Virus record (IMG/VR): IMGVR_UViG_3300038701_000079
Span: 1-25,858 of that record
Direction: 5' to 3' (one strand)
Source of the DNA: a virus
DNA length: 25,858 nt
This document shows, one piece after another, positions 133 to 22,801 of this stretch (position 1 is the stretch's first letter; every line of letters begins with the position of its first letter). Below the pieces are notes generated by a model. That model saw only the letters and a program-made list of their open reading frames with translations. It was not told the origin of the DNA and searched no databases. A program made the position numbers and the translations under genes.

Positions 133-322
133 GGACACGCTGGAGATGCTGCACCTGCACTGCACGGAGGGTAAAAGCTACTCCGAGGTCGCGCAGATTA
201 CCGGCACCGCCAAGCAAACCATCGCCAAGCGCATCCAGCGCGTGAGACACCAAGACTTCCTCCACGACCCAGCCGAGGCAGCCGCCTACTGGAACAGCCT
301 ACCGAAAGGAAACCCGACATGA
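110..322 (+). CDS. Small helix-turn-helix protein, GcrA / sigma-70 region 4-like
   Basis: The 70-residue product has one predicted helix-turn-helix at about residues 23-46 (YSEVAQITGTAKQTIAKRI). The spacing of EG-S-x(2)-[EQ][VI]A-x(3)-G-x(5)-I-x-K-x(2)-R resembles the N-terminal DNA-binding domain of GcrA-type regulators and sigma-70 region 4. I chose the GTG at 110 because AAGGAG at 97-102 sits seven bases upstream; a longer reading from ATG 14 would run through unrelated arginine/serine-rich sequence. Its stop overlaps the start of the kinase gene (ATGA), so the two are translationally coupled. It probably binds DNA as a phage regulator. A reduced terminase small subunit is the main alternative, since no other TerS is visible, but it is short for that. 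The HTH call is fairly secure; the role is inferred. Confidence 0.6.
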   Translation: MTTRQDDEDTLEMLHLHCTEGKSYSEVAQITGTAKQTIAKRIQRVRHQDFLHDPAEAAAYWNSLPKGNPT

Positions 323-933
323 CCCGACTCCCGCAAGTGATCGCCTTCACGGGCAAAGCAGGATCTGGCAAGACAACCGCCGCCAACTGGATTCTGCGCA
401 ACCACCCCAAAGCGATGAAGATGTCCTTCGCCCAGCCGCTGAAAAAGATGTTCTACGAGCTTATCCGGCAGAGCATACCGAAGGCATGGCCGCACACGCC
501 CATCGAGTATATTGACGGCGCGCTGAAGGAAGAGCCGATCCCCTTCCTGTCTAACCGCACTGGGCGCGAACTGATGCAGTCGCTGGGCACGGAATGGGGC
601 CGCAACACAGTCCAACCCGACTTCTGGGTCAACATCGCCCAAGGCAAACTGGAACGCCTGCTGGGCGACCGCCGTGTGGCCTCCGACACACCGCATATCC
701 TCGCGGTATATGACGACGTGCGGTTCCAGAACGAGGCTGACATGATCCGCTCGTATGGCGGCCTGATCGTCAATGTCCAGCGCCCGCTGACCAAGACGAC
801 CTCGGACACGACCACGAACCACGCCTCGGAGCAACAAGAGATCGAGCCGGATCTGGTCTGGCACAATGACGGCACGGAAGAGGACTTCACCGCCAAGGTA
901 GCTGAGTTGCTGCCTGTGCCACCCAAGGCTTGA
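319..933 (+). CDS. Deoxynucleoside monophosphate kinase
   Basis: This 204-residue P-loop protein carries a Walker A motif at residues 12-19 (GKAGSGKT) directly after a hydrophobic strand. It also has the ELMQSLGTEWGR and DFWVNIAQGKLE segments typical of phage dNMP kinases (T4 gene 1-like), and a DDVRFQNEAD segment matching the family's second conserved acidic/arginine region. Family members phosphorylate dNMPs to dNDPs, using ATP, to feed phage DNA synthesis, and act in the cytoplasm. The start ATG overlaps the stop of the HTH gene (ATGA). The gene is the last before an intrinsic terminator, so it closes an upstream, probably early or middle, operon. Length is normal for the family. The family call is good; substrate range cannot be read from sequence. 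Confidence 0.8.
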   Translation: MTRLPQVIAFTGKAGSGKTTAANWILRNHPKAMKMSFAQPLKKMFYELIRQSIPKAWPHTPIEYIDGALKEEPIPFLSNRTGRELMQSLGTEWGRNTVQPDFWVNIAQGKLERLLGDRRVASDTPHILAVYDDVRFQNEADMIRSYGGLIVNVQRPLTKTTSDTTTNHASEQQEIEPDLVWHNDGTEEDFTAKVAELLPVPPKA

Positions 934-2623: not shown

Positions 2624-2650
2624 CGCCCACAAATCCGCGTGGAGACGACA

Positions 2651-3994
2651 ATGAGCGACAACGAAGTCAAAAAGTTTGGCCGATACAGCGAACTCGGCGT
2701 CGCCAGCGACACAGATCCGCGCTACGGCCTCAGAAACGACGAGTTCGTCAACGACCTGCGCGGTCAGCGCGGTGTCAAGCGGCTGCGCGAAATGGCGTCC
2801 AACGACGCGATCATCGGCGCGATCCTGTCCGCGATGGACCTTATGGTCCGCTCAACCCCTGTTCGGATCGAAGGCGGCACGGAAGAAGCCCGCGACCTGA
2901 TCGAGTACAGCCTGCACAATATGCAGGGCAGCACGTTCGAGATGTTCATCAGCGACGCGCTCAGTTTCCTGCCCTACGGCTTCAGCCTGTTCGAGATCGT
3001 GGCCCGCCCGCCCTCGCAGCACCCGAAAGGCTGGGTGACGTTGAAAAAGCTGGCTCCACGCGCGCAATGGACCATCGAGCGGTTCCATTCCAATAACAAC
3101 GGCGACATCCTGGGCGTCTATCAGACCGCGACAACGCGCTCGGCCTACATCCCGACCCAAAAGTTACTCCATTTCCGCACGGCGTCTAAACAGGCCGCTC
3201 CAGAAGGCGAGTCTGTGCTACGCGCGGCCTATGCGTCGTGGTATTTCAAGCGGCGCATCCAAGAAATCGAAGCTATTGCAATCGAAAGGGAACTGAACGG
3301 TCTTCCCTTGGTCCGCGTACCGTCTGAATACTTAGATCCTGACGCGGACGCAGCGAAAAAAGCGTTCGTCAACAAGATCGGACAGATTGCCCGAGATGTA
3401 AAAAGGAACGAGCAAGGCTATGTCGTTTTGCCCTCTGACGTTTACGAACATTCGGATGGCAAGCTGACTGAAGTGCGGCTCGTCGAGTTTGAACTGATCG
3501 CCTCGCAAGGTAAACGGGACATTGACACCGACCGTGTGATCCAACGCTACGCGCAGGACATGGCCCGTTCGGCCCTCGCGGACTTCGTGCTCCTTGGCTC
3601 CAACGACCGTGGCTCCTTCGCCCTGTCCAAGTCCAAGTCCGACCTGTTCCTCAAAGCCCTTGAGGGCTACGTCAGCGCGATCACCAGCGTCTTGAACCGC
3701 CAGCTTGTGCCGAAACTGCTCGGCTGGAACGGCATGGCGACAGACGACATGCCGGAGATCAAGTTTGGCCGCATCGCGCCCATCGACCTTGATCAGCTTG
3801 GCTTCTACATCCAGTCTCTCACAGGCGCGGGTATTGATCTGACTGACGACGACACCCGCGACTTCATCCGCAACGCGGCGGGCTTCCCGCCTGCCGTCAC
3901 CGTTCCCGGCGAAAACCTGAACGGGAAGCCGGATCGGGAGCAGCAAACCACCCCCGCCATCCCTGCCACCCCAGCGCCCGAGCAGGCTGAGTAA
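2651..3994 (+). CDS. Portal protein (DUF935 / Mu gp29-like)
   Basis: The 447-residue product has the features of the DUF935 portal family. These include an N-terminal region with acidic helices, the FLPYGFSLFEIV segment, the GWVTLKKLAPRAQWT segment, a KLLHFRT strand and the long portal stem-helix region around EGESVLRAAYASWYFKR. The portal forms a dodecameric ring at one head vertex, through which TerL pumps DNA and to which connectors bind. I prefer ATG 2651 over an in-frame GTG at 2639 because GGAG (2641-2644) is correctly placed for it. The C-terminal tail is rich in Pro, Ala and Thr and likely disordered. Its stop TAA overlaps the next ATG by one base. Placement after terL and before protease and capsid genes supports the call. 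Confidence 0.88.
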   Translation: MSDNEVKKFGRYSELGVASDTDPRYGLRNDEFVNDLRGQRGVKRLREMASNDAIIGAILSAMDLMVRSTPVRIEGGTEEARDLIEYSLHNMQGSTFEMFISDALSFLPYGFSLFEIVARPPSQHPKGWVTLKKLAPRAQWTIERFHSNNNGDILGVYQTATTRSAYIPTQKLLHFRTASKQAAPEGESVLRAAYASWYFKRRIQEIEAIAIERELNGLPLVRVPSEYLDPDADAAKKAFVNKIGQIARDVKRNEQGYVVLPSDVYEHSDGKLTEVRLVEFELIASQGKRDIDTDRVIQRYAQDMARSALADFVLLGSNDRGSFALSKSKSDLFLKALEGYVSAITSVLNRQLVPKLLGWNGMATDDMPEIKFGRIAPIDLDQLGFYIQSLTGAGIDLTDDDTRDFIRNAAGFPPAVTVPGENLNGKPDREQQTTPAIPATPAPEQAE

Positions 3995-4737
3995 TGGTTC
4001 AGGGCACGCAAAGCTGGCACGAGCGCCTGTGGCGCACCAACAACCTCGCGGACATCGCGCGAGGTGAGGTGCCGGGTGCCAAGCCGTTCTCGGCATTTGG
4101 CGAGAACGTCACTTCAGGGTCTGTTACCGACCAAGTGCTGTGGGAAACCGGGATGCCGACCGCGCTGACAGTTCCGGGTTCCATCCAACTGTCTTTCGTG
4201 TCGAGCGCGGCGGACACTCGCCGTCTGAAACTGATCTATCTGGACGGCGATCTGGTCGAGCGCGCCGAGACAATCACGCTCACAGGCACCACGCCTGTCT
4301 TGACCACGGCCACGGACATCCGTTTCGTCAACAAGCTCTACAGTCTCGATGGCGCGGCGGCCACGAATGTGACGGCCACGAGTGGCGGCGTGACCTACGC
4401 ACGGCTCAACGCGGGCGGTGTGCAGTTCGACCAAGCGATGTACCGCGTCCCGGCAGGCCGCCGCCTTATGGTCAATTCGCTCTACGCAGGCGCGGCGTCT
4501 GGGTCGTCGGCATCGCGCGTCGTCATCAAGGCCGAAGTCTCGTTCTTCAACGGCGACAGCTTTGGTGAGCAGGGCATACTGCACCCGGTTGGTGGCATCG
4601 CGCTGCAAGACAATGCCGTGACCCTGCCCTTTGGCCCGTTCCCGATCCCTGCGGGCGAGATCGTGGCCCTGACCTTCACTTGTGACAAGGCCGCCGACGT
4701 GGTGGGCGGCTTCTTTGGATGGACGGAGACCGCCTGA
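3994..4737 (+). CDS. Putative virion structural protein of the head module
   Basis: The 247-residue product has no signal peptide or membrane segment. It is rich in Gly, Ala, Thr and Val with alternating strand-like stretches (LTVPGSIQLSFVSSAADTRR, AETITLTGTTPVLTT, ADIRFVNKLYSLDG), suggesting a beta-sandwich. I recognise the general style of marine-phage virion proteins in which a strand-rich domain contains a sugar-binding-like TLTGTTPV segment, but cannot name a family with confidence. It lies between portal and protease, with one-base overlaps on both sides, so it is made together with the head proteins. It may be a head fibre, a minor capsid protein or a decoration protein. No catalytic motif is visible. 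Confidence 0.5.
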   Translation: MVQGTQSWHERLWRTNNLADIARGEVPGAKPFSAFGENVTSGSVTDQVLWETGMPTALTVPGSIQLSFVSSAADTRRLKLIYLDGDLVERAETITLTGTTPVLTTATDIRFVNKLYSLDGAAATNVTATSGGVTYARLNAGGVQFDQAMYRVPAGRRLMVNSLYAGAASGSSASRVVIKAEVSFFNGDSFGEQGILHPVGGIALQDNAVTLPFGPFPIPAGEIVALTFTCDKAADVVGGFFGWTETA

Positions 4738-6233
4738 TGCCATACGACACACTTCCCAAGCGTTTGCGCGACCTTATCCCGTCCAAGGACGGCCAAGAGA
4801 TGTTCAGGAGCGTCGTGAACAGCCAACTGGCGGCCAACAAGACCGAGGCCGTGGCGATGGCGTCCGCATGGGCCGCGCTGGAACGCGCGGGCTACGATAA
4901 GGGCGACGACGGCAAATGGGTGCAGAAATCCAGCACCGAAGGGCTGCGCAACAAGCTGGAGATGTGGAACGAGAAGTACGCGGACAAGCACGGCAAGCTC
5001 ACAATGGGGATGCTGCAAGACGTGTACGACCGAGGCGTGGGCGCGTACCGCACGAACCCGAGCAGCGTCCGCCCGAACGTGACCTCGCCGGAGCAATGGG
5101 CGATGGCACGGGTGAACAGCTTTATCGAGGCGGCGCGCGGCGCGAAGAAGGTCAACCACGACCAAGACATCCACGACAAGATCAAGAAGACCATGCCGAC
5201 CTTGAGCCAAGTCCACGTTCCCGGCGCAGAATGGGACGACAAGAAGCGCAAGAAGAAGCCGAAGGTCGAGAAGGCTGAATACCAAGGTCGTACTGTCTCA
5301 CTGGACAAGCCGTTTCGGATGCCAAAGGGTTCGAGCAAAAAGTTCGGCGTCTATGTGAAAGACGGCGACCGCGTGAAGCGTGTCACGTTTGGCGATCCGA
5401 ACATGGAAATCCGCCGCGATGACGCGCAGGCCCGCGCCAACTTCCGTTCGCGCCACTCCTGCGACACGGCCACGGACAAGACAAGCGCGCGTTGGTGGTC
5501 TTGCCGAATGTGGACTGCAAAGACGCCCGTGAGTGACCTCGCCAAACGCTATCTGAACGACGACAGTTTCACCACCCGCGAGGAAGCCGCAGCGCGCAGC
5601 TACGACCTCGGGCTGGAGGGCGAAGTGCATGTCCACCAGACCGCTGACGGCCAAGCCGTCTACATGCCGGGAGAGAGCCACGAGGACTATCTCGAAGCGA
5701 TGGCGAGCGCGGCTGGACTCCTTGAACCTGAAGAGGTCGAGGAGGAAGAATACGAGGACGAATCAGGAACAGGATTGCTTGAACGCGCTATTTCCGCCAT
5801 ACTAGAGGCCGTGACCGACATGGAAAAGGCCGACATGACCGAAGACGTGACCAAGACCGCCGACATCCTGAAGGTGGACACCGAGCGCCGCATCGTGTGG
5901 GGCTGGGCGTCCGTCTGCACCATGAAAGGCGAGACCGTCACGGATTTGCAAGGCGACCGCATCGCGCCCGCGCAGATGGAAAAGATGGCCGACCGCTTCA
6001 TGCGCAGCGCCCGCGCCGCCAAGGCGATGCACTACGGCGACGACGTGGGCGAGGTCATTCACTCCTTCCCGATGACCAAAGAACTCGCAGACGCCTTCGG
6101 CATCCAGAGCGAGCGCGAAGGCTGGATCACCGGCACCTACGTCAAGAGTGACGAGGAGTGGGATAAGGTCCGCAACGGTACGTACAAAGGGCTGTCAATC
6201 GGTGGCCGCGCACGTCGCAAGGAGGCAGAGTGA
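4737..6233 (+). CDS. ChaB-like / XkdF-type prohead protease fusion
   Basis: The 498-residue protein appears to have three parts. Residues 1-65 resemble ChaB (MPYDTLPKRLRDLIP, then a helical AWAALERAGY segment and GDDGKWVQK). Residues about 66-275 resemble a domain known from cyanophage proteins, with VTFGDPNMEIRRDD and a Cys/Trp-rich SARWWSCRMW segment; the first part of it looks DUF5824-like. After an acidic linker (EPEEVEEEEYEDES), residues about 373-498 match the PBSX XkdF putative serine protease, with MHYGDDVGEVIHSFPM (His about 432, Ser about 443) and KGLSIGG near the end. The usual family ending (SLVDNPAN) is missing here and occurs at the start of the next gene. Start ATG 4737 has GGAG at 4725-4728. 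It likely cleaves scaffold and capsid proteins during head maturation. Confidence 0.75.
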   Translation: MPYDTLPKRLRDLIPSKDGQEMFRSVVNSQLAANKTEAVAMASAWAALERAGYDKGDDGKWVQKSSTEGLRNKLEMWNEKYADKHGKLTMGMLQDVYDRGVGAYRTNPSSVRPNVTSPEQWAMARVNSFIEAARGAKKVNHDQDIHDKIKKTMPTLSQVHVPGAEWDDKKRKKKPKVEKAEYQGRTVSLDKPFRMPKGSSKKFGVYVKDGDRVKRVTFGDPNMEIRRDDAQARANFRSRHSCDTATDKTSARWWSCRMWTAKTPVSDLAKRYLNDDSFTTREEAAARSYDLGLEGEVHVHQTADGQAVYMPGESHEDYLEAMASAAGLLEPEEVEEEEYEDESGTGLLERAISAILEAVTDMEKADMTEDVTKTADILKVDTERRIVWGWASVCTMKGETVTDLQGDRIAPAQMEKMADRFMRSARAAKAMHYGDDVGEVIHSFPMTKELADAFGIQSEREGWITGTYVKSDEEWDKVRNGTYKGLSIGGRARRKEAE

Positions 6234-7015
6234 TGGCTTACGACCTTGAAGATATTGACCTGTTTGAGCTGAGTTTGGTTGATAACCCCGCGAATCAGCA
6301 CGCGAGTGTTGTGCTATTTAAGCGTTCGGGGTATAACCCCGATGTCAAGTCCGAAAATTCGGACCTAACCGAGAAAGGAGATGGTTCAGTGACCGTCGAA
6401 GAACTCACGAAGAAGCTGGAAGACCTCCAGTCTCAGGTCACTGACCTGACCGAAAAAGCCAACATGGCGGAAGACGAGAAGAAAAAGGCCGAAGAGATGG
6501 CTGCCAACATGAAGAAGTCGGCTGAAGAAGCTGGTTTCGTTGTGGACGGCGACACCATCACCAAGGCCGCTGACCCCGAGTACGTCGATATCGACGGCGA
6601 GCGGGTTGAGAAGTCTCTCGTTCCGGCCCCTGTGCTCAAGGCTATCGAAAAGCAGGCCGAGGCCATCGCCAAGATGGAGAAGGCGGCTCAGGAAGTCGAA
6701 CTCGCCAAGGCGGGCGCGACTGAACTGCCGAACCTCGCAGGCACCGATCTCGCCAAAGGCCGCCTCTTGGCAGCCGTTGCAGGCGACGAAGAACTGCTGA
6801 AGGGTCTCAAAGCCGCCAACGCAGCGATGGCCTCGCAGTATGTCGAGAAGGGCACCGCCGAGGTGGATGAAGCCTCCCCGACGCACAAGCTGAACGAGCT
6901 TGCCAAGGCTCACGCATCTGCACAGAACGTCTCGTTTGAGACCGCCTATGCCGAAGTGACCAAGGCTGGCCCCGGCGCGGCTCTGCTTGCAGAACTCCGC
7001 ACAACCGCCAACTGA
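6233..7015 (+). CDS. Scaffold protein beginning with the XkdF C-terminal segment
   Basis: From ATG 6233, placed seven bases after AAGGAGG (6219-6225), this frame encodes 260 residues. The first 25 or so (DIDLFELSLVDNPANQHA) are what normally ends an XkdF-type protease, while the preceding gene stops at 6233 in another frame. From about residue 53 the product is a highly charged coiled coil (VEELTKKLEDLQSQVTDLTE) rich in Glu, Lys and Ala, as in scaffold proteins, followed by helical segments. Scaffolds direct capsid assembly and are removed by the protease. The gene sits between the protease and the decoration/capsid genes, as expected. A second start at 6389 would give scaffold alone (see that entry). 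The scaffold call rests on composition and order, not on a sequence match. Confidence 0.7.
   Translation: MAYDLEDIDLFELSLVDNPANQHASVVLFKRSGYNPDVKSENSDLTEKGDGSVTVEELTKKLEDLQSQVTDLTEKANMAEDEKKKAEEMAANMKKSAEEAGFVVDGDTITKAADPEYVDIDGERVEKSLVPAPVLKAIEKQAEAIAKMEKAAQEVELAKAGATELPNLAGTDLAKGRLLAAVAGDEELLKGLKAANAAMASQYVEKGTAEVDEASPTHKLNELAKAHASAQNVSFETAYAEVTKAGPGAALLAELRTTAN
6389..7015 (+). CDS. Nested in-frame scaffold product (alternative start)
   Basis: Inside the protease-tail/scaffold frame, AAAGGAG at 6374-6380 is followed after eight bases by an in-frame GTG (6389-6391), giving a 208-residue product beginning VTVEELTKKLEDLQS. That start falls exactly at the boundary between the protease-like segment and the coiled coil. 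Nested protease/scaffold genes are well known (lambda C/Nu3 is the model). The ribosome binding site is strong and the spacing ideal. In vivo use is inferred. Confidence 0.55.
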   Translation: MTVEELTKKLEDLQSQVTDLTEKANMAEDEKKKAEEMAANMKKSAEEAGFVVDGDTITKAADPEYVDIDGERVEKSLVPAPVLKAIEKQAEAIAKMEKAAQEVELAKAGATELPNLAGTDLAKGRLLAAVAGDEELLKGLKAANAAMASQYVEKGTAEVDEASPTHKLNELAKAHASAQNVSFETAYAEVTKAGPGAALLAELRTTAN

Positions 7016-7027
7016 GGAGAGTGACTC

Positions 7028-7384
7028 ATGGCTACTACTGAAGCAGGCATCAGCATCACGCTCCCCGCAGCCGCTGATCTTCGCACCCACCAGTACAAGT
7101 TCGTGTCCATCGACGCGAACGGCAAAGCGGCACTGACTGCCGACGATGCACATGCTGACGGCATTCTGTGCAACGACCCGAACACGGACGAAGCGGCCAT
7201 CGTGCTGATTTCCGGCGTGGGCAAGGTCAAGTGCGGCGCGGCTGTCACACGCGGCGGCGACATTTCGTCGGGCGCAAACGGGGCAGGCAAAAACGCTGAC
7301 ACCGGCGCGGCGATCCTCGGCACCGCACTCGAAACTGGCGCGGACGGTCGGATCATCTCCGTACTGTTCCACCCGCGCGGCTGA
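7028..7384 (+). CDS. Head decoration (capsid cement) protein
   Basis: The 118-residue product is small, strand-rich and Gly/Ala-rich. It contains the pattern of DUF2190-like decoration proteins: a central SGVGKVKCGAAVTRGGDIS segment (a barrel strand pair around a GV-x-KV-x-CGA motif), then ADGRIISVLFHP at the end. Such proteins bind the outside of the mature capsid and stabilise it. GAGGAG ends eight bases before ATG 7028. It lies directly before the capsid gene, where this family is usually found. The single Cys and lack of a signal or membrane segment are unremarkable. The family is judged from length, composition and position. Confidence 0.7.
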   Translation: MATTEAGISITLPAAADLRTHQYKFVSIDANGKAALTADDAHADGILCNDPNTDEAAIVLISGVGKVKCGAAVTRGGDISSGANGAGKNADTGAAILGTALETGADGRIISVLFHPRG

Positions 7385-7399
7385 TAGGAGACCACAGCA

Positions 7400-8398
7400 A
7401 TGACGCAACCCACCGCACGCGCTGTTCATACCGATCAGCCTCTCACCAATATCTCGGTCGCGTTCCTTCAGAACGCTTCCAACTTCGTCGCGCCGCGAGT
7501 GTTCCCGAACATCCGCGTCCAGAAGCAGTCGGACGTGTACTACACGTATGACCGAGGCTATTTTAACCGCAACCAAGCCAAGCTGCGCGCTCCGGCCACT
7601 GAAGCGGCCATCGCCGGTTTTGGTCTGAGCACCGACAGCTACCGCGCAGACGTGTATGCGCTCAAGGCGCAGATCGCGTGGCAGGTCGAGGCCAACGCTG
7701 ACACTCCGGTGCAGCTTGAGCGGGCCAACACTGAAATGCTGCTGCACCAGATGATGATTAAGCGCGAAGTTGACTGGGCAACCGCCAACTTCACGACCGG
7801 CGTTTGGGGCACAGACTACGCGGGCGTGGCATCTTCGCCGGGTACAGGCGAAGTTGTCCAGTGGTCCGACCAGACTTCGGGCGACCCGATTGGCGACATC
7901 CGTGATGCCAAAACCGACATCATGGAATCCACCGGCATGATGCCGAACACAATGGTTATGTCGCAGCGCGTCCTCGACGCTCTGATCGACCACCCGGATA
8001 TTGTGGACCGCATCAAGTATTCCGGCGGTGTTGGCAACGCCAACCCGGCGATGGCGTCGGAGCAGACACTGGCACAGTTGTTCGGGATCGACCGTATCCT
8101 CGTGATGCGCGCGATCCAGAACACCGCTGCGGAAGGCGACGCCAACGCGCACTCCTTCATCGGTGGCAAGAACGCGCTGCTGGCCTATGTCGCACCGACC
8201 CCAGGCCTGATGACGCCTAGTGCGGGTTACACCTTCACTTGGTCGGGCTATCAGGGTGGCGGCAACGAGTTCGGTGTCACCGTGACCCGTCGTGAAGACG
8301 ACAAGATCAAGGCGACCGAAATCGAGACCGAGATGTCCTACGATCACAAGGTTGTCGCAGCCGACTGCGCCTCGTTTTTCAGCGCAATCGTCGCATAG
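7400..8398 (+). CDS. Major capsid protein (HK97 fold expected)
   Basis: The 332-residue product has the usual layout of a phage capsid protein: an N-terminal NASNFVAPRVFPNIRVQKQS segment, a helical segment rich in acidic residues, VVMSQRVLDAL-like (here MVMSQRVLDALIDHP) and a C-terminal FTWSGYQGGGNEFGVTVTRR stretch followed by an exposed strand ending at SFFSAIVA. Capsid proteins of this type form the icosahedral shell. AGGAG (7386-7390) lies nine bases before ATG 7400. It follows scaffold and decoration genes and precedes a strong terminator, as expected for the most abundant virion protein. No evidence of a cleaved delta domain is seen; the separate scaffold gene fits that. The call is based on context plus sequence style. 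Confidence 0.82.
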   Translation: MTQPTARAVHTDQPLTNISVAFLQNASNFVAPRVFPNIRVQKQSDVYYTYDRGYFNRNQAKLRAPATEAAIAGFGLSTDSYRADVYALKAQIAWQVEANADTPVQLERANTEMLLHQMMIKREVDWATANFTTGVWGTDYAGVASSPGTGEVVQWSDQTSGDPIGDIRDAKTDIMESTGMMPNTMVMSQRVLDALIDHPDIVDRIKYSGGVGNANPAMASEQTLAQLFGIDRILVMRAIQNTAAEGDANAHSFIGGKNALLAYVAPTPGLMTPSAGYTFTWSGYQGGGNEFGVTVTRREDDKIKATEIETEMSYDHKVVAADCASFFSAIVA

Positions 8399-8530: not shown

Positions 8531-8998
8531 ATGGCTCGACTCATCTCCCACCCCTTTGATCCGACCAAGCCGGTCTACGCGCGGCGCTTCTTCGTGGCCG
8601 CAGGCCGCCACTACGAACCCGGCACCCTTTTTGATTGGCAGCGCCTGTCCGTCGCCCAGCGCCGTGTGTTCCTGCTTTTTGAAGCGGGTAAGCTGACTCA
8701 TGACGCACCGGGTGTGGAAGCGCCCAAGGCCGAGCCGATCAAAGGACCGAAGCCCAATGTGGCGCTGGACCCCTCGCAAGAACCCGCGCCGGACGGTGAG
8801 ATGTTTGAAGCAACAGTCGGAGATACGGGCAGGGCCATGCAGCCTGTCGAGGAGCCGGGTCCGGTTGATGAACTCGACGACATGAATATGAAAGAGCTTC
8901 GTGCCGTTGCCGAAGAAGAGGGTGCCCCGTATCGCACCAGCCGCGATGCGCAACGTCAAGCAATCCGAGAACACCGTGACAGCCGCTCGGACGCTTGA
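8531..8998 (+). CDS. Hypothetical protein with HeH/SAP-like C-terminus
   Basis: The 155-residue product has an N-terminal segment rich in aromatic and basic residues (PVYARRFFVAAGRHYEPGTL), an acidic and proline-rich middle that looks disordered, and a C-terminal helical pair (MNMKELRAVAEEEGAPYRTS) similar in layout to HeH/LEM or SAP domains, which often bind nucleic acid or partner proteins. ATG 8531 follows the promoter at 8468-8496, with AGGA at 8519-8522. The reading frame is open further upstream, but those starts fall inside the promoter and terminator. Its end overlaps the methyltransferase. I do not recognise a function; a head-tail connector accessory role is possible from position. 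Confidence 0.5.
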   Translation: MARLISHPFDPTKPVYARRFFVAAGRHYEPGTLFDWQRLSVAQRRVFLLFEAGKLTHDAPGVEAPKAEPIKGPKPNVALDPSQEPAPDGEMFEATVGDTGRAMQPVEEPGPVDELDDMNMKELRAVAEEEGAPYRTSRDAQRQAIREHRDSRSDA

Positions 8999-9527
8999 AG
9001 TCCAGAAATACGAGCAAGCCTATCGCCACGACGATTACCGTCTAGGCGATAGGCGGCGCGCGCACATCATCGAACACCTGAGCCAGATTCCCAAAGGCAG
9101 CCTGCTGGATGTGTCCACTGGGCGCGGCGAGGTCTTGCAGATCGCCCGCGACCTCGGCCACTTCCCCGTGCAAGGTACAGAAGCCGTCGAGTATCTGTGT
9201 GACGGTCTGAACATTGTCCACGCCCTCGGCCACGCCCTGCCCTTTGCAGACAGCAGCTACGACACGGTGACGATGTTTGATGTGATGGAACATCTGCTGC
9301 CCGAGGACACCAAGGCAGTGTGTCAAGAACTCGCCCGCGTCGCCAAGCAGCGCGTCCTGTTGACGATCCACAACGGTTCGCACCGTTATCGTGGGCAGGA
9401 ACTGCATGTGAACCGCCGCGCGTCCTACGAGGCATGGCACATCGAACTTGAGCACCATTTCAAACGAACCGTGATCCGGCACGGCAAAGGCGACTCCATC
9501 AGCGAGATGTTTGAGGTCGCACTGTAA
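8946..9527 (+). CDS. SAM-dependent class I methyltransferase
   Basis: The 193-residue product carries motif I (LLDVSTGRGE, about residues 53-62), an acidic residue at the end of strand 2 (TEAVEYL, about 78-84), the ALPFADSSYDTVTMFDVMEHL region (about 97-117) with the catalytic-fold signature of Methyltransf_11-type enzymes, and a further strand VLLTIHNGS. It would use S-adenosylmethionine to methylate an unknown acceptor. The start is uncertain: ATG 8946, GTG 8901 and GTG 8976 are all in frame, none with a good ribosome binding site; the conserved part is unaffected. It overlaps the previous gene. An enzyme in the head/connector region suggests an accessory (moron-like) function, perhaps modifying virion or surface molecules rather than DNA, since no DNA-methylase motif is seen. 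Confidence 0.75.
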   Translation: MRNVKQSENTVTAARTLEVQKYEQAYRHDDYRLGDRRRAHIIEHLSQIPKGSLLDVSTGRGEVLQIARDLGHFPVQGTEAVEYLCDGLNIVHALGHALPFADSSYDTVTMFDVMEHLLPEDTKAVCQELARVAKQRVLLTIHNGSHRYRGQELHVNRRASYEAWHIELEHHFKRTVIRHGKGDSISEMFEVAL

Positions 9528-17127: not shown

Positions 17128-17687
17128 TGAGTCGCGACATCTCAACCCCCGTCAACACCGCCGTCGCGGCCCCGACCATCCAGCCGTTCTTCGCGGTGGA
17201 CCTGCTGTTTGATAGCCCGAACGAACTGTACCTTTGGTCGGGCTACGGCACCAAGACGATCAACGGCAAAGACTATCTCGGCGCGGGCGAACTGCTGTCC
17301 GTGTCTACCGTCACAGAGACCACCGACATTTCCGCACAAGGCGCGACCATCACCATCAGCGGCGTTCCGAGTGACCTTCTGGCAAAAGCCTTTGACGAGC
17401 CGTACCAGAACCGAGGCTGCAACATCTATTTCGGCGTCGTCGGCTCCGAGGCGGACTATGTGAGCGTGTTCGCGGGCTATCTCGACACGATGAACATCAC
17501 GGAAGGTCCAGAGACCGGGACCATCGAACTGTCGGTCGAGAACAAGCTGATCGACTTGGAGCGACCGCGTGTGTTTCGCTACACCGACACGTTTCAGAAA
17601 TCGCAGTTTGCGGGCGACAAGGGGTTTGAGTTTGTCGCGTCCTTGCAGGACCAGCGTCTGCCTTGGGGTAAGGGGATCAAAGATTGA
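17127..17687 (+). CDS. Tail tip / baseplate hub-associated protein
   Basis: The 186-residue product has the segments PFFAVDLLFDSPNELYLWSG and YGTKTINGKDYLGAGELLS, then ATITISGVPSDLLAKAF, CNIYFGVV and GTIELSVENKLIDLERPRVF, all strand-rich. They recall a common phage tail family that lies between the distal tail protein and the J-like tip (lambda L or GTA gp13 position). The C-terminus (ASLQDQRLPWGKG) also fits that family. Start ATG 17127 overlaps the previous TGA, with GGAG at 17114-17117. Its stop overlaps the TTG start of the acetyltransferase. Unlike lambda L, no iron-sulfur Cys cluster is evident: only one Cys (in GCNIYF) is seen. Confidence 0.65.
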   Translation: MSRDISTPVNTAVAAPTIQPFFAVDLLFDSPNELYLWSGYGTKTINGKDYLGAGELLSVSTVTETTDISAQGATITISGVPSDLLAKAFDEPYQNRGCNIYFGVVGSEADYVSVFAGYLDTMNITEGPETGTIELSVENKLIDLERPRVFRYTDTFQKSQFAGDKGFEFVASLQDQRLPWGKGIKD

Positions 17688-18136
17688 TTTACCGCCAAGA
17701 GTTCATTGATGATGTCTACGAGGACTGCCAGCCGCTCATTGAGCAGCACTGGAAAGAGATTGCGCTGAACCAAGACAAGATCAAGCTGAACCCGAACTGG
17801 GACGCCTATAGGGCGTTGGAGGGTATTGGCGCGTTTCGGATCTTCACCGCGCGAGACGACGGCAAGCTGGTCGGCTACTTCGCCGTCTTCGTCGAACCGA
17901 ACCTGCACTACCAAGACCATCTGTTCGCCCGCAACGACGTGCTGTTCTTGCACGAGGACTACCGCAAGGGCTTCTGCGGCGTAAGACTCATTCGTTTTGC
18001 AGAGAAGTGCTTAAAGGCTGACGGGGTGTCCGTCCTTGTGATAAACACCAAACTGCACAAAGATTTCTCTTCCGTCCTCAAGTGGATGGGCTTCAAGCAT
18101 ACTGAAGCCACCCACACAAAATACATAGGTGCCTAG
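17684..18136 (+). CDS. GNAT-family acetyltransferase
   Basis: The 150-residue product has a GNAT layout: FRIFTARDDGKLVGYFAVFV (strands 2-4), DVLFLHEDYRKGFCGVRLIRFAEKCL (the acetyl-CoA pyrophosphate-binding turn in the RKGFCG region and following helix), VLVINTKLHK and a final LKWMGFKHTEATHTKYIG strand-helix. Such enzymes transfer an acetyl group from acetyl-CoA, here to an unknown acceptor. The start is TTG 17684, with AAGGGGA (17670-17676) seven bases upstream and coupling to the previous stop (TTGA). It lies in the tail module just before the J-like gene. Related phage GNATs occur beside tail genes, but their substrates are unknown. The active-site base cannot be assigned. Confidence 0.75.
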   Translation: MIYRQEFIDDVYEDCQPLIEQHWKEIALNQDKIKLNPNWDAYRALEGIGAFRIFTARDDGKLVGYFAVFVEPNLHYQDHLFARNDVLFLHEDYRKGFCGVRLIRFAEKCLKADGVSVLVINTKLHKDFSSVLKWMGFKHTEATHTKYIGA

Positions 18137-21100
18137 ATGGCTATCTCCGCAGGGTCCGCGCTCCTTTCCGCAGTAGGTACAGGCTTCACTGCCACCGGCT
18201 TTGTGACCGCAGGGAGCATGTTCATCGGCGGCACGATGCTAACGCACTTTCTTGCTTCGACCGCCATCGGCGCGGCTATCAATGCCCTGACACCAAAACC
18301 CGATACCCCCGGCGCGGCGGGATACACCGTCACGGCCCGAGGGTCCAACCTTGACCACCAGATCATCTACGGCCAGACCCGCGTGGCGGGCGCAGTCGTG
18401 GCGGACTTCTTGGGGGGCGGGGGCGGGGAGGCAGGTACACGTTTCCTGCATCGCATTCAGGTTATGGCAGGTCACGAAATTGAGTCCTATGAGGAAGTCT
18501 ACGTCAACTCCTACAAGGTGACGGAGTGGAAGGCGAACACGTCTGCGGGTGGCGTCGGTGCGGTAACTGGCATCACGGATCTTACCCCATGGTATAATGA
18601 TCCCGATGCTGTGCTCGTGCCAACAAAACTGGTTGAGGTCGCGCCCGACGGTACTGAGACCGAGGCCACAGACGTTGACTACAGCAAATGGAATGCGCTC
18701 GCCATACAGTTCTGGACGGGCGCTGATGACCAGATCGCGTCGCCGCGACTAATTTTTGAACATCCAGAAGGCAAGTGGACTTCAGATCACCGTCTGCGGG
18801 GACGTGCTTATATGTATGTCCGCCTAGGCCGCGACGCGGATGGTGACAACTTCCCGACAGGCGTGCCAGAGATCACCGCCGTTATTAAAGGTCGCAAGGT
18901 CTATGACCCGCGCGAGGTCTCGCACGATCCTGACGACAAATCGACATGGGCGTGGAGCGACAACCCCGCGCTCTGCATCCGGGATTACCTAACCCAAGAC
19001 TTCGGTCTAGGAGAGAGAAGTATCCAGGTTGATGACGATCTCGTTGAGACCGCCGCCAATGTCTGTGACCAAACCGCCGATGACGGCTCGACGCGCTACA
19101 CCTGCAACGGCGCGTTCACGACAGGCATCCAACCTTATGACCTGCTGAACAGCATTCTCACGTCAATGGGCGGCTTGCTCTGGTACGCCCAAGGCCAGTG
19201 GCGGATGAAGCCCGCCTATTGGACCGTGCCGACCGAAAGTTTCAGCGAGGACGACTTCCGGTCGGCCATCAGCGTGTCCACACGTCACAGCCGCAAGGAC
19301 AACTTCAACACGGTCGAGGGTACATTCCGAGGCCCTAAGAGCAACTACGCGCTCACCACCTTCCCTGCGGTGGACAGCGCCGCGTCCATCACGGCGGATG
19401 GTGGCACGGTCAGCAAGATTGACCTTGAGATGCCCTTCACCGACACGCCCGAGGAGGCGCGTCGGATCGCCCGTATCGTGCTGGAACGCAACCGTCAGCA
19501 GCTCACCGTCCGCGCGTCGTTCGGCCTCAAGGCGTTCCGTGTTCAGGTTGGAGATGTCATCAGTCTGAGCCTCGAACGCTTTGGTTGGGTCAACAAGACC
19601 TTTGAGGTCACGGGATGGTCTTTCGGCAACGTCGATCAGTATGACATCCAGATCGAACTGACCCTGCGCGAGATCACCGAGAGTGTCTTTGACGAGGTGG
19701 ACGATGGAGTCACGTTTGAACTGGACAATGCCAGCGTGCCGTCACCCCTAGCCGGTCTTACGGTTGAGAATCTTTCAGTCATCACCAACGGCTTTTTCTC
19801 TACTGACGGCACGTTCATTAACAACCTGTTGGTGAACTGGGACGCGCCCGTAAACTCTAACGTCGCGGAGTACGCTGTAGAGTGGCGTATCGACAACTTT
19901 GACTACGCCGCGAACGGAGGTATCGTTACTCTAGGAACGAGTCCTACGAACCGAGAAGTGTTCGTCTACCAAGCATACGAAGATGTGCTTTTCCGGCAGC
20001 CCGATCAGGACGGTTTTGACTTCTATGTCACGGGCGGCGGGTCCACGCTGACTGAACAGGAAATCCGAGCGCAGCTTGAGGCATCCGCAGAGGGCGTCGC
20101 GGCGCGTTCCTACGTCATAACCGGTGCTAAAGTGAACGGTACGGCGAATGAGTACAACATCTACCCTGTCCGAGACGATGAAATATACAGCGTGCGTGTG
20201 CGGGCGATAAACGACTTTGGGGCAGCATCTCGTTGGGCAGCGGCTACGGTGGACGCATCTAAAGATGTAACCGCACCCAACGCTCCTACGAGCCTGTCGG
20301 CAACGGGTGGCATCCAGTCTGTTTCTCTATCTTGGGTCGCGCCGACCACAAACACCGACGGCACTCCGTTCACAGATTTCCGTGAATATATCGTCTATGG
20401 CGGTACGAGCAGCAACCCGACGACAGAGATTGGCCGCACAACAGGTAGGTCTTTCACGCACGGTGGACTTCTGGACGACACGACGTACTACTACCGTGTC
20501 AAGGCAGTAGACTATTCTGGCAACGATAGCACGTATTCGGGGCAGGACAGTGCTACCACGAACGCAGAGATTGCTGATGGTGTGTCGGTTTTGGTTGTCT
20601 ATGCAGACGACGCTATCGGCACAAACCAGAGCCTGACCGCAGGGACTCGTCGCTACGTCCAGTATGTTGAATATACGGGAACCGCGCCATCTCTCCCCGT
20701 AAGCGGCACTTTTGTCCTGTTTGTGGGTGAAGACGGTGCAGACGGTGCAGACGGTGCAGACGGTGCAGACGGTGCAGACGGTGCAGACGGTGCAGACGGT
20801 GCAGACGGTGCAGACGGCATTGATCCGGTACTTGTCGTTGTTGAAAGCCCTGTTGTCGTGGTCAACGCGGACGCGGCGGGTAACGACGACTACGCAAACA
20901 CCGGCACAATCATCCGTGTCTTTGAAGGCGCAACCGAACTTGTGTACGATTCTACGCCCGTTGCGGGGCAGTGGGAGATCACCTCAACAAGCGCCACGGG
21001 GCTTACGCTTGGCGCAATTACGGACAGCGGAACCTTCGGTACTGTGGCCGATCTTGTTGACATGCTCACGTCGCAAGACACCCGAACAGCAACGTACACC

Positions 21101-22801
21101 ATTGTGGGAAAACGGCTTGACGGCACCGCTTTTACTCGCACCGCAAAGCAAACAGTCCGACGTGTCTTTGATGGCGTGAACCCCATCACCGTAATCAGCG
21201 ACAAGACAGCTTATGCTATTCCCGTCGCTTCCGACGGTACGGTAAACTATGCTGGGTCTGGTCCGGCGGTGCGGGTATTTGAGGGTGACACCGAACTGGA
21301 TTACGATTCAACTCCTTTGTCAGGGGAGTGGGAGTTTACTGGGTCGCCAACGGTCGAAAGCGGGTCAATAAGCGCCGGGGCATACAATCTGTCCACTGGG
21401 GCCATATCCAACCACAGCAATATGACCACGGACACGGCGGTCATTCGGTACGACATCGTTGGGTTGAGAGCAAACGGGTCTGCGTTCAGTGCGGCGTTCC
21501 GTCAAACGATAACGAAAGTGTTTGATGGCACTGCGGGCGACCGAGGCGCGGGCCGTTGGCACATTGACGTGGACGCCGTGAACTACCCAACAGGAACGGA
21601 TGGCAGGTTGCCGCTGAGTAGCGCAGACGCGCAAAAAGCATGGGACGATGGCACAGGTAATCAACCGACTACACAGGTTCAAGGCGATCAAGCATGGTTT
21701 TACAAAGGGACCGAAGCCAACCCCACCGCGCAGTCTGTGTGGATTTACGACGGGTCGGTTTGGAATGAGCAGAACGAGGTCATTGACGGCAATCTGCTGG
21801 TCACGGATACAATCACAACTGACAAGCTGCAAACCAACGCGGTTACTGCCGACAAGATTTCTATTGGTGATTCCACGCTTACTTCTGATGGCTCCGGTAG
21901 TCTTGTGGTTGGTACATTGGATGCCAGCAAGATTACCGCTGGGACATTTGACGCCGCGCGGATTCCGACACTTCCCCAGTCTCAGATCACGGACTTGACG
22001 GATGATCTCGCTATCGGCATTGGCCGCGCAACCACATTTTATGCCGCCACGGCCCCAACAGCCAATAGCGTTGGCGATGTCTGGTACGACACGACGAACA
22101 ACAAAGTGAAACGCTGGAGTGGCTCTGCTTGGGTGGAGTTTACTATCGAGGCTGAATCCGTTGCTGCCACTTGGGTTTATGCTGGGACTCTGACTGCGGG
22201 CCAAGTCAACGCGGTCGCCATCGACGCGGGCAGCATCACCGTTGGTTCTTTGGACGCCGATAGAATAAGCGTTGATGGTGTTACGTTAGACACGGACGGG
22301 CTGGGGAACCTTATCATCAAAGATAGTGGCGTGAGCACTGACAAACTGGCATCTAAGGCTGTAGTTGACGAGGCGTTCGGCTTTGACTACGGCAACCAAG
22401 ACATCTCCTCGCAAGGCGTGTGGACAGAGGTAGAGTCGGCAACGCTCACAAATGCAAGCCCGGATGGTTTCATCGATATTTTCTGGGCGTTTGAAGCCGA
22501 GGCCGAGGGGGCAACCCTAGACCCGTCCTACCTCAACAACTTCGTTGTTATGGATTTCCGCATCAAAGCCACCTTCCCCGGAGCCGGAACCTCAACAATT
22601 ACTTTCCCAGCCCGCTTTGTTTTTAACGGCACCCCAACTTGGATAAGTCACAAATACCCCTATGGCAGCACGACAAGAAGCATTGCCGGAGATATAACCT
22701 TCAGCATAGAAGTTAGGCTGACGGGCACGAGCGGGAGCATCACAGACCCGTTTCTGCGCATCACTAACACACAAGTTGCAATGATGCAGATTAAACGCTG
22801 A
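18137..22801 (+). CDS. Tail tip / host-specificity protein (lambda J-like)
   Basis: This 1554-residue protein is the likely central tail fibre/tip. Residues 3-51 are hydrophobic with Gly/Ala turns. Residues about 55-540 hold the hub-like region, with DHQIIYGQTRVAGAVV and YVRLGRD-type segments. A first FN3-like domain (about 545-710) is interrupted by a DUF4214-like insert (about 610-653); a second FN3 is at about 712-810. A collagen-like stretch (GED, nine GAD, GID; about 864-896) precedes two homologous Ig-like repeats (about 897-1013 and 1014-1132). The C-terminus has GNLLVTDTITTDKLQTNAV, as in J proteins that trimerise, and a terminal strand-rich domain that may contact the receptor. ATG 18137 follows the GNAT stop directly. 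The protein determines host recognition and helps open the cell envelope. Confidence 0.88.
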   Translation: MAISAGSALLSAVGTGFTATGFVTAGSMFIGGTMLTHFLASTAIGAAINALTPKPDTPGAAGYTVTARGSNLDHQIIYGQTRVAGAVVADFLGGGGGEAGTRFLHRIQVMAGHEIESYEEVYVNSYKVTEWKANTSAGGVGAVTGITDLTPWYNDPDAVLVPTKLVEVAPDGTETEATDVDYSKWNALAIQFWTGADDQIASPRLIFEHPEGKWTSDHRLRGRAYMYVRLGRDADGDNFPTGVPEITAVIKGRKVYDPREVSHDPDDKSTWAWSDNPALCIRDYLTQDFGLGERSIQVDDDLVETAANVCDQTADDGSTRYTCNGAFTTGIQPYDLLNSILTSMGGLLWYAQGQWRMKPAYWTVPTESFSEDDFRSAISVSTRHSRKDNFNTVEGTFRGPKSNYALTTFPAVDSAASITADGGTVSKIDLEMPFTDTPEEARRIARIVLERNRQQLTVRASFGLKAFRVQVGDVISLSLERFGWVNKTFEVTGWSFGNVDQYDIQIELTLREITESVFDEVDDGVTFELDNASVPSPLAGLTVENLSVITNGFFSTDGTFINNLLVNWDAPVNSNVAEYAVEWRIDNFDYAANGGIVTLGTSPTNREVFVYQAYEDVLFRQPDQDGFDFYVTGGGSTLTEQEIRAQLEASAEGVAARSYVITGAKVNGTANEYNIYPVRDDEIYSVRVRAINDFGAASRWAAATVDASKDVTAPNAPTSLSATGGIQSVSLSWVAPTTNTDGTPFTDFREYIVYGGTSSNPTTEIGRTTGRSFTHGGLLDDTTYYYRVKAVDYSGNDSTYSGQDSATTNAEIADGVSVLVVYADDAIGTNQSLTAGTRRYVQYVEYTGTAPSLPVSGTFVLFVGEDGADGADGADGADGADGADGADGADGADGIDPVLVVVESPVVVVNADAAGNDDYANTGTIIRVFEGATELVYDSTPVAGQWEITSTSATGLTLGAITDSGTFGTVADLVDMLTSQDTRTATYTIVGKRLDGTAFTRTAKQTVRRVFDGVNPITVISDKTAYAIPVASDGTVNYAGSGPAVRVFEGDTELDYDSTPLSGEWEFTGSPTVESGSISAGAYNLSTGAISNHSNMTTDTAVIRYDIVGLRANGSAFSAAFRQTITKVFDGTAGDRGAGRWHIDVDAVNYPTGTDGRLPLSSADAQKAWDDGTGNQPTTQVQGDQAWFYKGTEANPTAQSVWIYDGSVWNEQNEVIDGNLLVTDTITTDKLQTNAVTADKISIGDSTLTSDGSGSLVVGTLDASKITAGTFDAARIPTLPQSQITDLTDDLAIGIGRATTFYAATAPTANSVGDVWYDTTNNKVKRWSGSAWVEFTIEAESVAATWVYAGTLTAGQVNAVAIDAGSITVGSLDADRISVDGVTLDTDGLGNLIIKDSGVSTDKLASKAVVDEAFGFDYGNQDISSQGVWTEVESATLTNASPDGFIDIFWAFEAEAEGATLDPSYLNNFVVMDFRIKATFPGAGTSTITFPARFVFNGTPTWISHKYPYGSTTRSIAGDITFSIEVRLTGTSGSITDPFLRITNTQVAMMQIKR
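20735..20815 (+). repeat. Nine perfect 9-bp tandem repeats (GGTGCAGAC)
   Basis: Nine identical copies of GGTGCAGAC run from 20735 to 20815 within the tip gene and encode (Gly-Ala-Asp)9, flanked by Gly-Glu-Asp and Gly-Ile-Asp. The Gly-X-Y pattern is collagen-like and likely forms a trimeric stalk. The complete identity at synonymous positions indicates recent slipped-strand expansion, so copy number probably varies; changes of one unit keep the frame. Confidence 0.95.

Follow-up and report, generated by a model that had tools for sequence, protein, structure and literature searches.

How a procapsid protease enters the shell, and how it stays silent until assembly, is a standing question for phages and herpesviruses alike. 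In the lambda C/Nu3 and herpesvirus UL26/UL26.5 systems, linkage to the scaffold brings the protease into the procapsid, and the scaffold is also made from a start of its own. In them the start lies in frame and the protease remains covalently attached.

Among the known systems most like the locus described here are proteases made as one chain. In Streptomyces phages (Stanwilliamsviridae; Stigma gp27, Bmoc gp47), the same catalytic domain is followed by an ELSLVDxPAN strand and an acidic, coiled-coil-like tail that precedes the capsid gene. The Firmicutes XkdF type (Lactococcus phage 28201, Listeria prophages; phrog_3017) also belongs to the PF14550 family and has a related strand, HVSYVDKAAN, but there the strand is N-terminal and connected by a flexible linker. 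T4 gp21 (5jbl) and herpesvirus assemblin, whose catalytic domains are single chains, share the barrel fold predicted for a fused homologue (see below). No report of a split procapsid protease was found in a partial search of the literature, and priority is therefore not claimed.

We describe here such a split in a viral DNA of 25,858 nt (IMG/VR record IMGVR_UViG_3300038701_000079, positions 1 to 25,858), the whole of which is called hereafter the window. The best explanation, which we consider likely, is that the procapsid protease is made in two chains, one strand being donated by the presumed scaffold and attaching the protease to the core.

Results

A head protease gene that stops before the last strand of its presumed fold

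Head genes in the window follow the order portal, protease, second gene, small head protein and capsid (Table 1). With terminase, Mu-type portal, small head protein and capsid as neighbours, the head module is an ordinary one, in which the second gene lies at the site expected for a scaffold. Profile comparisons gave no family match naming the second protein a scaffold; it is presumed to be one from its position, its coiled-coil-like composition and the absence of another candidate. The family of the small head protein, phrog_673, carries the label head scaffolding protein; since 9NA has an annotated major virion protein at the homologous position, this product is probably a decoration protein.

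Table 1. Features of the window discussed in the text, with other genes observed in it.
Feature	Position	Strand	Remarks
Deoxynucleotide monophosphate kinase (DNMK)	319-933		
Mu-type portal	2639-3994		upstream of protease; terminase also a neighbour
Protease gene	4719-6233	+	504 aa; ChaB-like and DUF5824-like modules at N-terminus, followed by catalytic domain without last strand
Long N-terminal part of protease gene	4719-5800		ChaB-like, DUF5824 and phrog_7595 modules
Peptidase_S78_2 (XkdF, PF14550) catalytic domain	5862-6221	+	profile positions 4-125 of 126, E 2e-15, 57.3 bits versus cut-off 24
Invariant His codon, presumed catalytic His	6030-6032	+	H78 of fragment 5799-6230; invariant in 18 and 19 sequences
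Invariant Ser codon in GLSIGG, presumed nucleophile	6195-6197	+	S133 of fragment 5799-6230; invariant in 18 and 19 sequences
Shine-Dalgarno AAGGAGG of second gene	6219-6225	+	inside protease gene; 7 nt 5' of ATG 6233
TGATG stop/start overlap	6231-6235	+	TGA 6231-6233, ATG 6233-6235, one base common to both
Second gene, presumed scaffold	6233-7015	+	260 aa, made up of strand, variable linker and coiled-coil-like body; flanked by protease and decoration/capsid genes
Last protease-barrel strand LEDIDLFELSLVDNPANQHASVVLFK, on second protein	6245-6322	+	from profile, model and conservation comparisons
Glu codon of ELS, candidate third active-site residue	6266-6268	+	at least 90% conserved among split relatives
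Small head protein (phrog_673), probably decoration protein	7028-7384	+	
Major capsid protein	7400-8398	+	phrog_1005, E 6e-90
Methyltransferase	8901-9527		near head genes
GNAT-like acetyltransferase	17684-18136		between tail genes
Large tail-like protein	18137-22801		GADGADGAD repeat run near middle

The protease gene scores above the curated cut-off of PF14550, encodes the His and the Ser (GxSIGG), and is sited between portal and capsid. The whole barrel, last strand included, is not on one chain: in the window, as in 36 relatives, that strand is carried by the next gene. The protease ends with ...KGLSIGGRARRKEAE, its TGA falling 11 residues past the Ser of GLSIGG, and the second protein begins with MAYDLEDIDLFELSLVDNPANQHASVVLFKR, which contains ELSLVDNPAN. 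The second gene is in the -1 frame relative to the protease (4719 mod 3 = 0; 6233 mod 3 = 2).

A preliminary description of this DNA had proposed that the protease domain is split over two genes, and the start of the second protein indeed matches protease profiles (see below). It had also judged AAGGAGG well placed for reinitiation at ATG 6233 (spacing in Table 1). Its statement that the protease lacks the usual family ending is true by fold, not by Pfam: the PF14550 model ends before the strand and is filled up to position 125 of 126, so that by Pfam boundaries the domain looks complete, and it is incomplete by fold only.

The N-terminal modules of the protease gene differ in their make-up among relatives (L013, L014, L038, L042). 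Split catalytic chains of family phrog_1530 (for instance L021, 2980-3390, and L018, 3022-3420) are widely labelled 'DNA methyltransferase', and the one in L021 matches PF14550; the label is likely a propagated misannotation.

The split is conserved among distant relatives

A scripted check found a protease stop followed by a separate strand-bearing gene at all of 37 loci, down to about 30% identity; this count includes the window, and since some contigs are near-identical, the loci are not all independent. The script left one further record (L026) unclassified, and it stands outside the 37. The split loci come from Roseobacter, Rhizobium, Vibrio, Pseudomonas, Salmonella 9NA and E. coli Bas82. 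Seven very distant phages (NoPa, EM, Summit, LV6, TM16, CR3 and Sonali) look split likewise by eye; they were left out of the count because the strand profile was below significance in them. Searches of phages at the DNA level, and of bacterial genomes with the catalytic domain of the window, found no relative.

In relatives without an insert, the stop and start overlap or closely adjoin, and nearly all of these have a purine-rich, Shine-Dalgarno-like stretch at the end of the protease gene, 5' of the second start. In L009/L040 and in L041, the halves are separated by an endonuclease-like ORF, directly after which the second gene begins; that of L009 gave a weak match to PF05367. These ORFs (2723-3460 in L009, about 2007-2955 in L041) have zinc-finger-like Cys pairs and a YTPDFYLP...EVKGW motif.

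An upstream Shine-Dalgarno-like sequence can stimulate -1 frameshifting, as is relevant to a second reading in which a programmed shift at the overlap, as in other frameshifted phage head and tail genes, yields a minor fused product that is the active enzyme. The overlap of the two genes and the Shine-Dalgarno-like sequence 7 nt upstream would suit it. We nevertheless hold it very improbable, because the shift needed would be -1 at 23 loci and +1 at 14, with no constant frame relation and none in frame, because a gene intervenes in two, and because no canonical slippery heptamer (X XXY YYZ) is present in the last 63 nt of the protease gene, either in the window, as had been noted before, or at any other of the 37 junctions. 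A sequencing or assembly error, which the preliminary description had kept as a lesser alternative, is refuted by the 36 other loci, the two reading frames and the two intervening genes. Moreover, the same TGATG overlap recurs in L002, L003 and L004, separate contigs whose catalytic domains are 97% identical, and the split is also retained in isolated sequenced phages.

The comparison of fused and split homologues that had been suggested thus gave a single frame in none of the 37 loci, with no close relative intact. The split at every locus, the mixed frames, the lack of a heptamer and the intervening endonuclease genes together indicate that two chains are made, and for practical purposes exclude both frameshifting and error. 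The two-chain architecture of the protease is therefore well supported; separate initiation of the chains, as first proposed, is supported as well.

The second protein begins with a conserved protease segment

Compared alone with PF04586 (Peptidase_S78), the second protein matched profile positions 129-158 of 165 with an E value of 0.006, below the Pfam curated cut-off. Stronger matches came from a profile of 21 second-protein N-termini, which recognized the fused proteases of Streptomyces phages (hhalign 95.7%, E 1e-8); the strand HMM matched them C-terminal to the domain (E 6e-8, residues 139-165), and matched psiM100 right after the catalytic domain (E 0.007). The alignment places KGLSIGGRARRKEAE / DIDLFELSLVDNPAN on LQGFSIGGAIKDAETQ...FVKDYELVELSLVDSPAN of the fused protease. 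By sequence homology, then, the front end of the second protein is protease, in agreement with the earlier view that the missing strand rides on the next protein, a presumed scaffold by position and composition.

This segment could be a relic of an old fusion, or serve the scaffold only, the protease working without it. Its shortness, the filling of PF14550 to 125 of 126 positions in its absence, and the loss of E12 in the 9NA group speak for such a reading. Conservation speaks against it: in comparison with L013 and L014, identity is 79-83% in the strand, about the same as the 80-81% of the catalytic domain, and 49-51% in the adjoining linker, and the dN/dS of the strand is low. Relative to the more distant L015 and L008, conservation of the strand falls somewhat below that of the catalytic domain. 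Across 21 divergent relatives, four residues of the second protein (S14, V16, A20 and K30) do not vary. Furthermore, the segment is present in every split relative counted, and non-split relatives fuse it at either end. A relic or purely scaffolding segment is thus unlikely, and donation of the strand to the protease is preferred.

The segment is predicted to be the last long strand of the barrel

A search by sequence found no solved structure. Evidence on the fold comes from an AlphaFold2 model of the fused homologue L073 (mean pLDDT 75, pTM 0.74), whose catalytic domain is only about 25-35% identical to that of the window. In this model, strand 119-134 contains Ser121 and is followed by the last long strand, 139-155 (pLDDT about 76-85), which is formed by the segment. 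The model aligned to T4 gp21 (5jbl) with a Z of 9.4 (3.5 A, 121 aligned residues, model 19-157 to chain 12-172, these being aligned ranges and not residue pairs), and the next matches were herpesvirus proteases, with Z of 5.2-7.1. A Foldseek search of the PDB gave no significant match; gp21 and the herpesvirus proteases were ranked on top by VIA-align only. As judged from this fused homologue, the protease of the window would share the barrel fold of the T4 gp21 and herpesvirus-protease type. The question whether the segment belongs to the protease fold is answered in the affirmative for L073, where it is predicted inside. As it is the last long strand of that model, the gene break of the window's clade would fall in the hairpin between the last two strands.

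A barrel left open in this way might be closed by another strand, provided by the N-terminal extension of the catalytic chain itself or by a domain swap with a partner chain, the strand of the second protein being used elsewhere. The long and variable N-terminal modules of the catalytic chain would offer material for this. However, no second copy of the strand profile was found in the protease or in the six frames of the window, and the split catalytic chains of L017, L018, L019 and L021, 127-136 aa long, are almost without N-terminal extension. We regard closure by another strand as quite improbable, and closure by the strand of the second protein as the better reading.

One strand in three places

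The position of the strand varies within the family. It is C-terminal in the Streptomyces phage proteases and in psiM100, where the same segment is fused. In the namesake XkdF type (Lactococcus, Listeria, gut Firmicutes), it comes ahead of the catalytic domain: the protease of Lactococcus phage 28201 begins with MRKLENVKVTHVSYVDKAANKKQFFLTK, and sequences from Listeria, Faecalibacterium and other Firmicutes agree, as do the XkdF-type N-termini of L077 and L082-L136, which bear the last barrel strand. The strand profile matched XkdF-type proteases at residues 2-21 (hhalign 72.8%, E 3e-5), and the strand HMM gave 7.6-14.1 bits at their N-termini, versus 4.5 for the best of 760 shuffles. In an XkdF-type model, a strand is predicted at 2-15 (pLDDT about 89 over 1-10, 70 over 11-20), followed by a disordered linker, 18-47. 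This model aligned to 5jbl with a Z of 8.8 (next unrelated row, 3.6), ending at chain residue 151; the last strand of gp21 is thus unmatched in order, as expected if the strand is supplied from the N-terminus. HHTV-2 looks similar to the XkdF type. The statement in the preliminary description that the segment normally follows in the same chain accordingly holds for the Streptomyces phages and psiM100, and fails for the namesake XkdF type, where the strand precedes the domain.

By sequence profile and predicted structure, the XkdF type is a circular permutation relative to the Streptomyces phage proteases. One strand is hence found in three places in a single protease family: N-terminal, C-terminal, and on the presumed scaffold. 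This is indirect evidence that its covalent order is dispensable, and that it can dock alone.

A candidate third active-site residue

The Glu of ELS (E12 of the second protein) is about 23 residues from the Ser when counted across the break, and 30 in the fused form. In SPN3US gp245 aligned to T4 gp21, the residues are S153 and D178 (PMC5694885). By this comparison of spacing, the Glu is at about the same distance from the Ser as the third active-site residue of the T4 gp21 group. In the 9NA and Henu15 groups a Phe stands in its place, which makes an indispensable third catalytic residue on the scaffold doubtful; a catalytic role would not be general.

Discussion

The mechanism that we propose is the following. 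Chain 1 would hold the catalytic residues Ser and His, together with a herpesvirus-assemblin-type barrel that lacks just its last strand. Chain 2, the presumed scaffold, would be made by coupled re-initiation at the overlapping ATG, and carry the last strand at its N-terminus. That strand would pair non-covalently with the open edge of chain 1 (strand complementation), thereby tying the protease to the growing core of scaffold and completing the fold beside the active site. The two-chain complex would then digest the scaffold and capsid-protein tails. Strand complementation would take the place of the covalent fusion of protease to scaffold of the Streptomyces type, and of the N-terminally permuted fusion of the XkdF type.

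Physical complementation, scaffold identity, targeting and activation are the parts that we infer. The protease is probably complete only once docked on the scaffold that it later cuts, and docking of the strand would target it, perhaps activate it. The preliminary description had envisaged a role of this kind, in which the arrangement may tether, activate or time the enzyme. We put forward more tentatively the idea that the protease is inactive until scaffold subunits donate the strand, so that assembly itself is the switch, and that the strand has moved among N-terminus, C-terminus and partner across the family.

Relative to the lambda C/Nu3 and UL26/UL26.5 systems, the two frames of the window differ, and the link between protease and scaffold would be a single strand. 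Relative to the Streptomyces phage protease, which is one chain, the difference is a gene boundary in the hairpin between the last two strands. A further comparison is with the genes in pieces of T4-like phages, which have homing endonucleases at the break (reviewed in PMC2988022). As in those genes, there are two functional pieces in the split clade, sometimes with an endonuclease between them (L009, L041). In contrast to them, the break in the split clade is old, clade-wide and mostly without endonuclease, and another protein carries the second piece.

Annotations can be corrected in consequence: the catalytic gene often carries the name 'DNA methyltransferase' (phrog_1530), and its partner is left hypothetical. 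For the family, the three positions of the strand amount to a natural case of circular permutation and of fission, both at one structural seam. A naturally split enzyme, part of which is borne by the presumed scaffold, would also give a direct handle on how the procapsid protease enters the shell and on its cutting.
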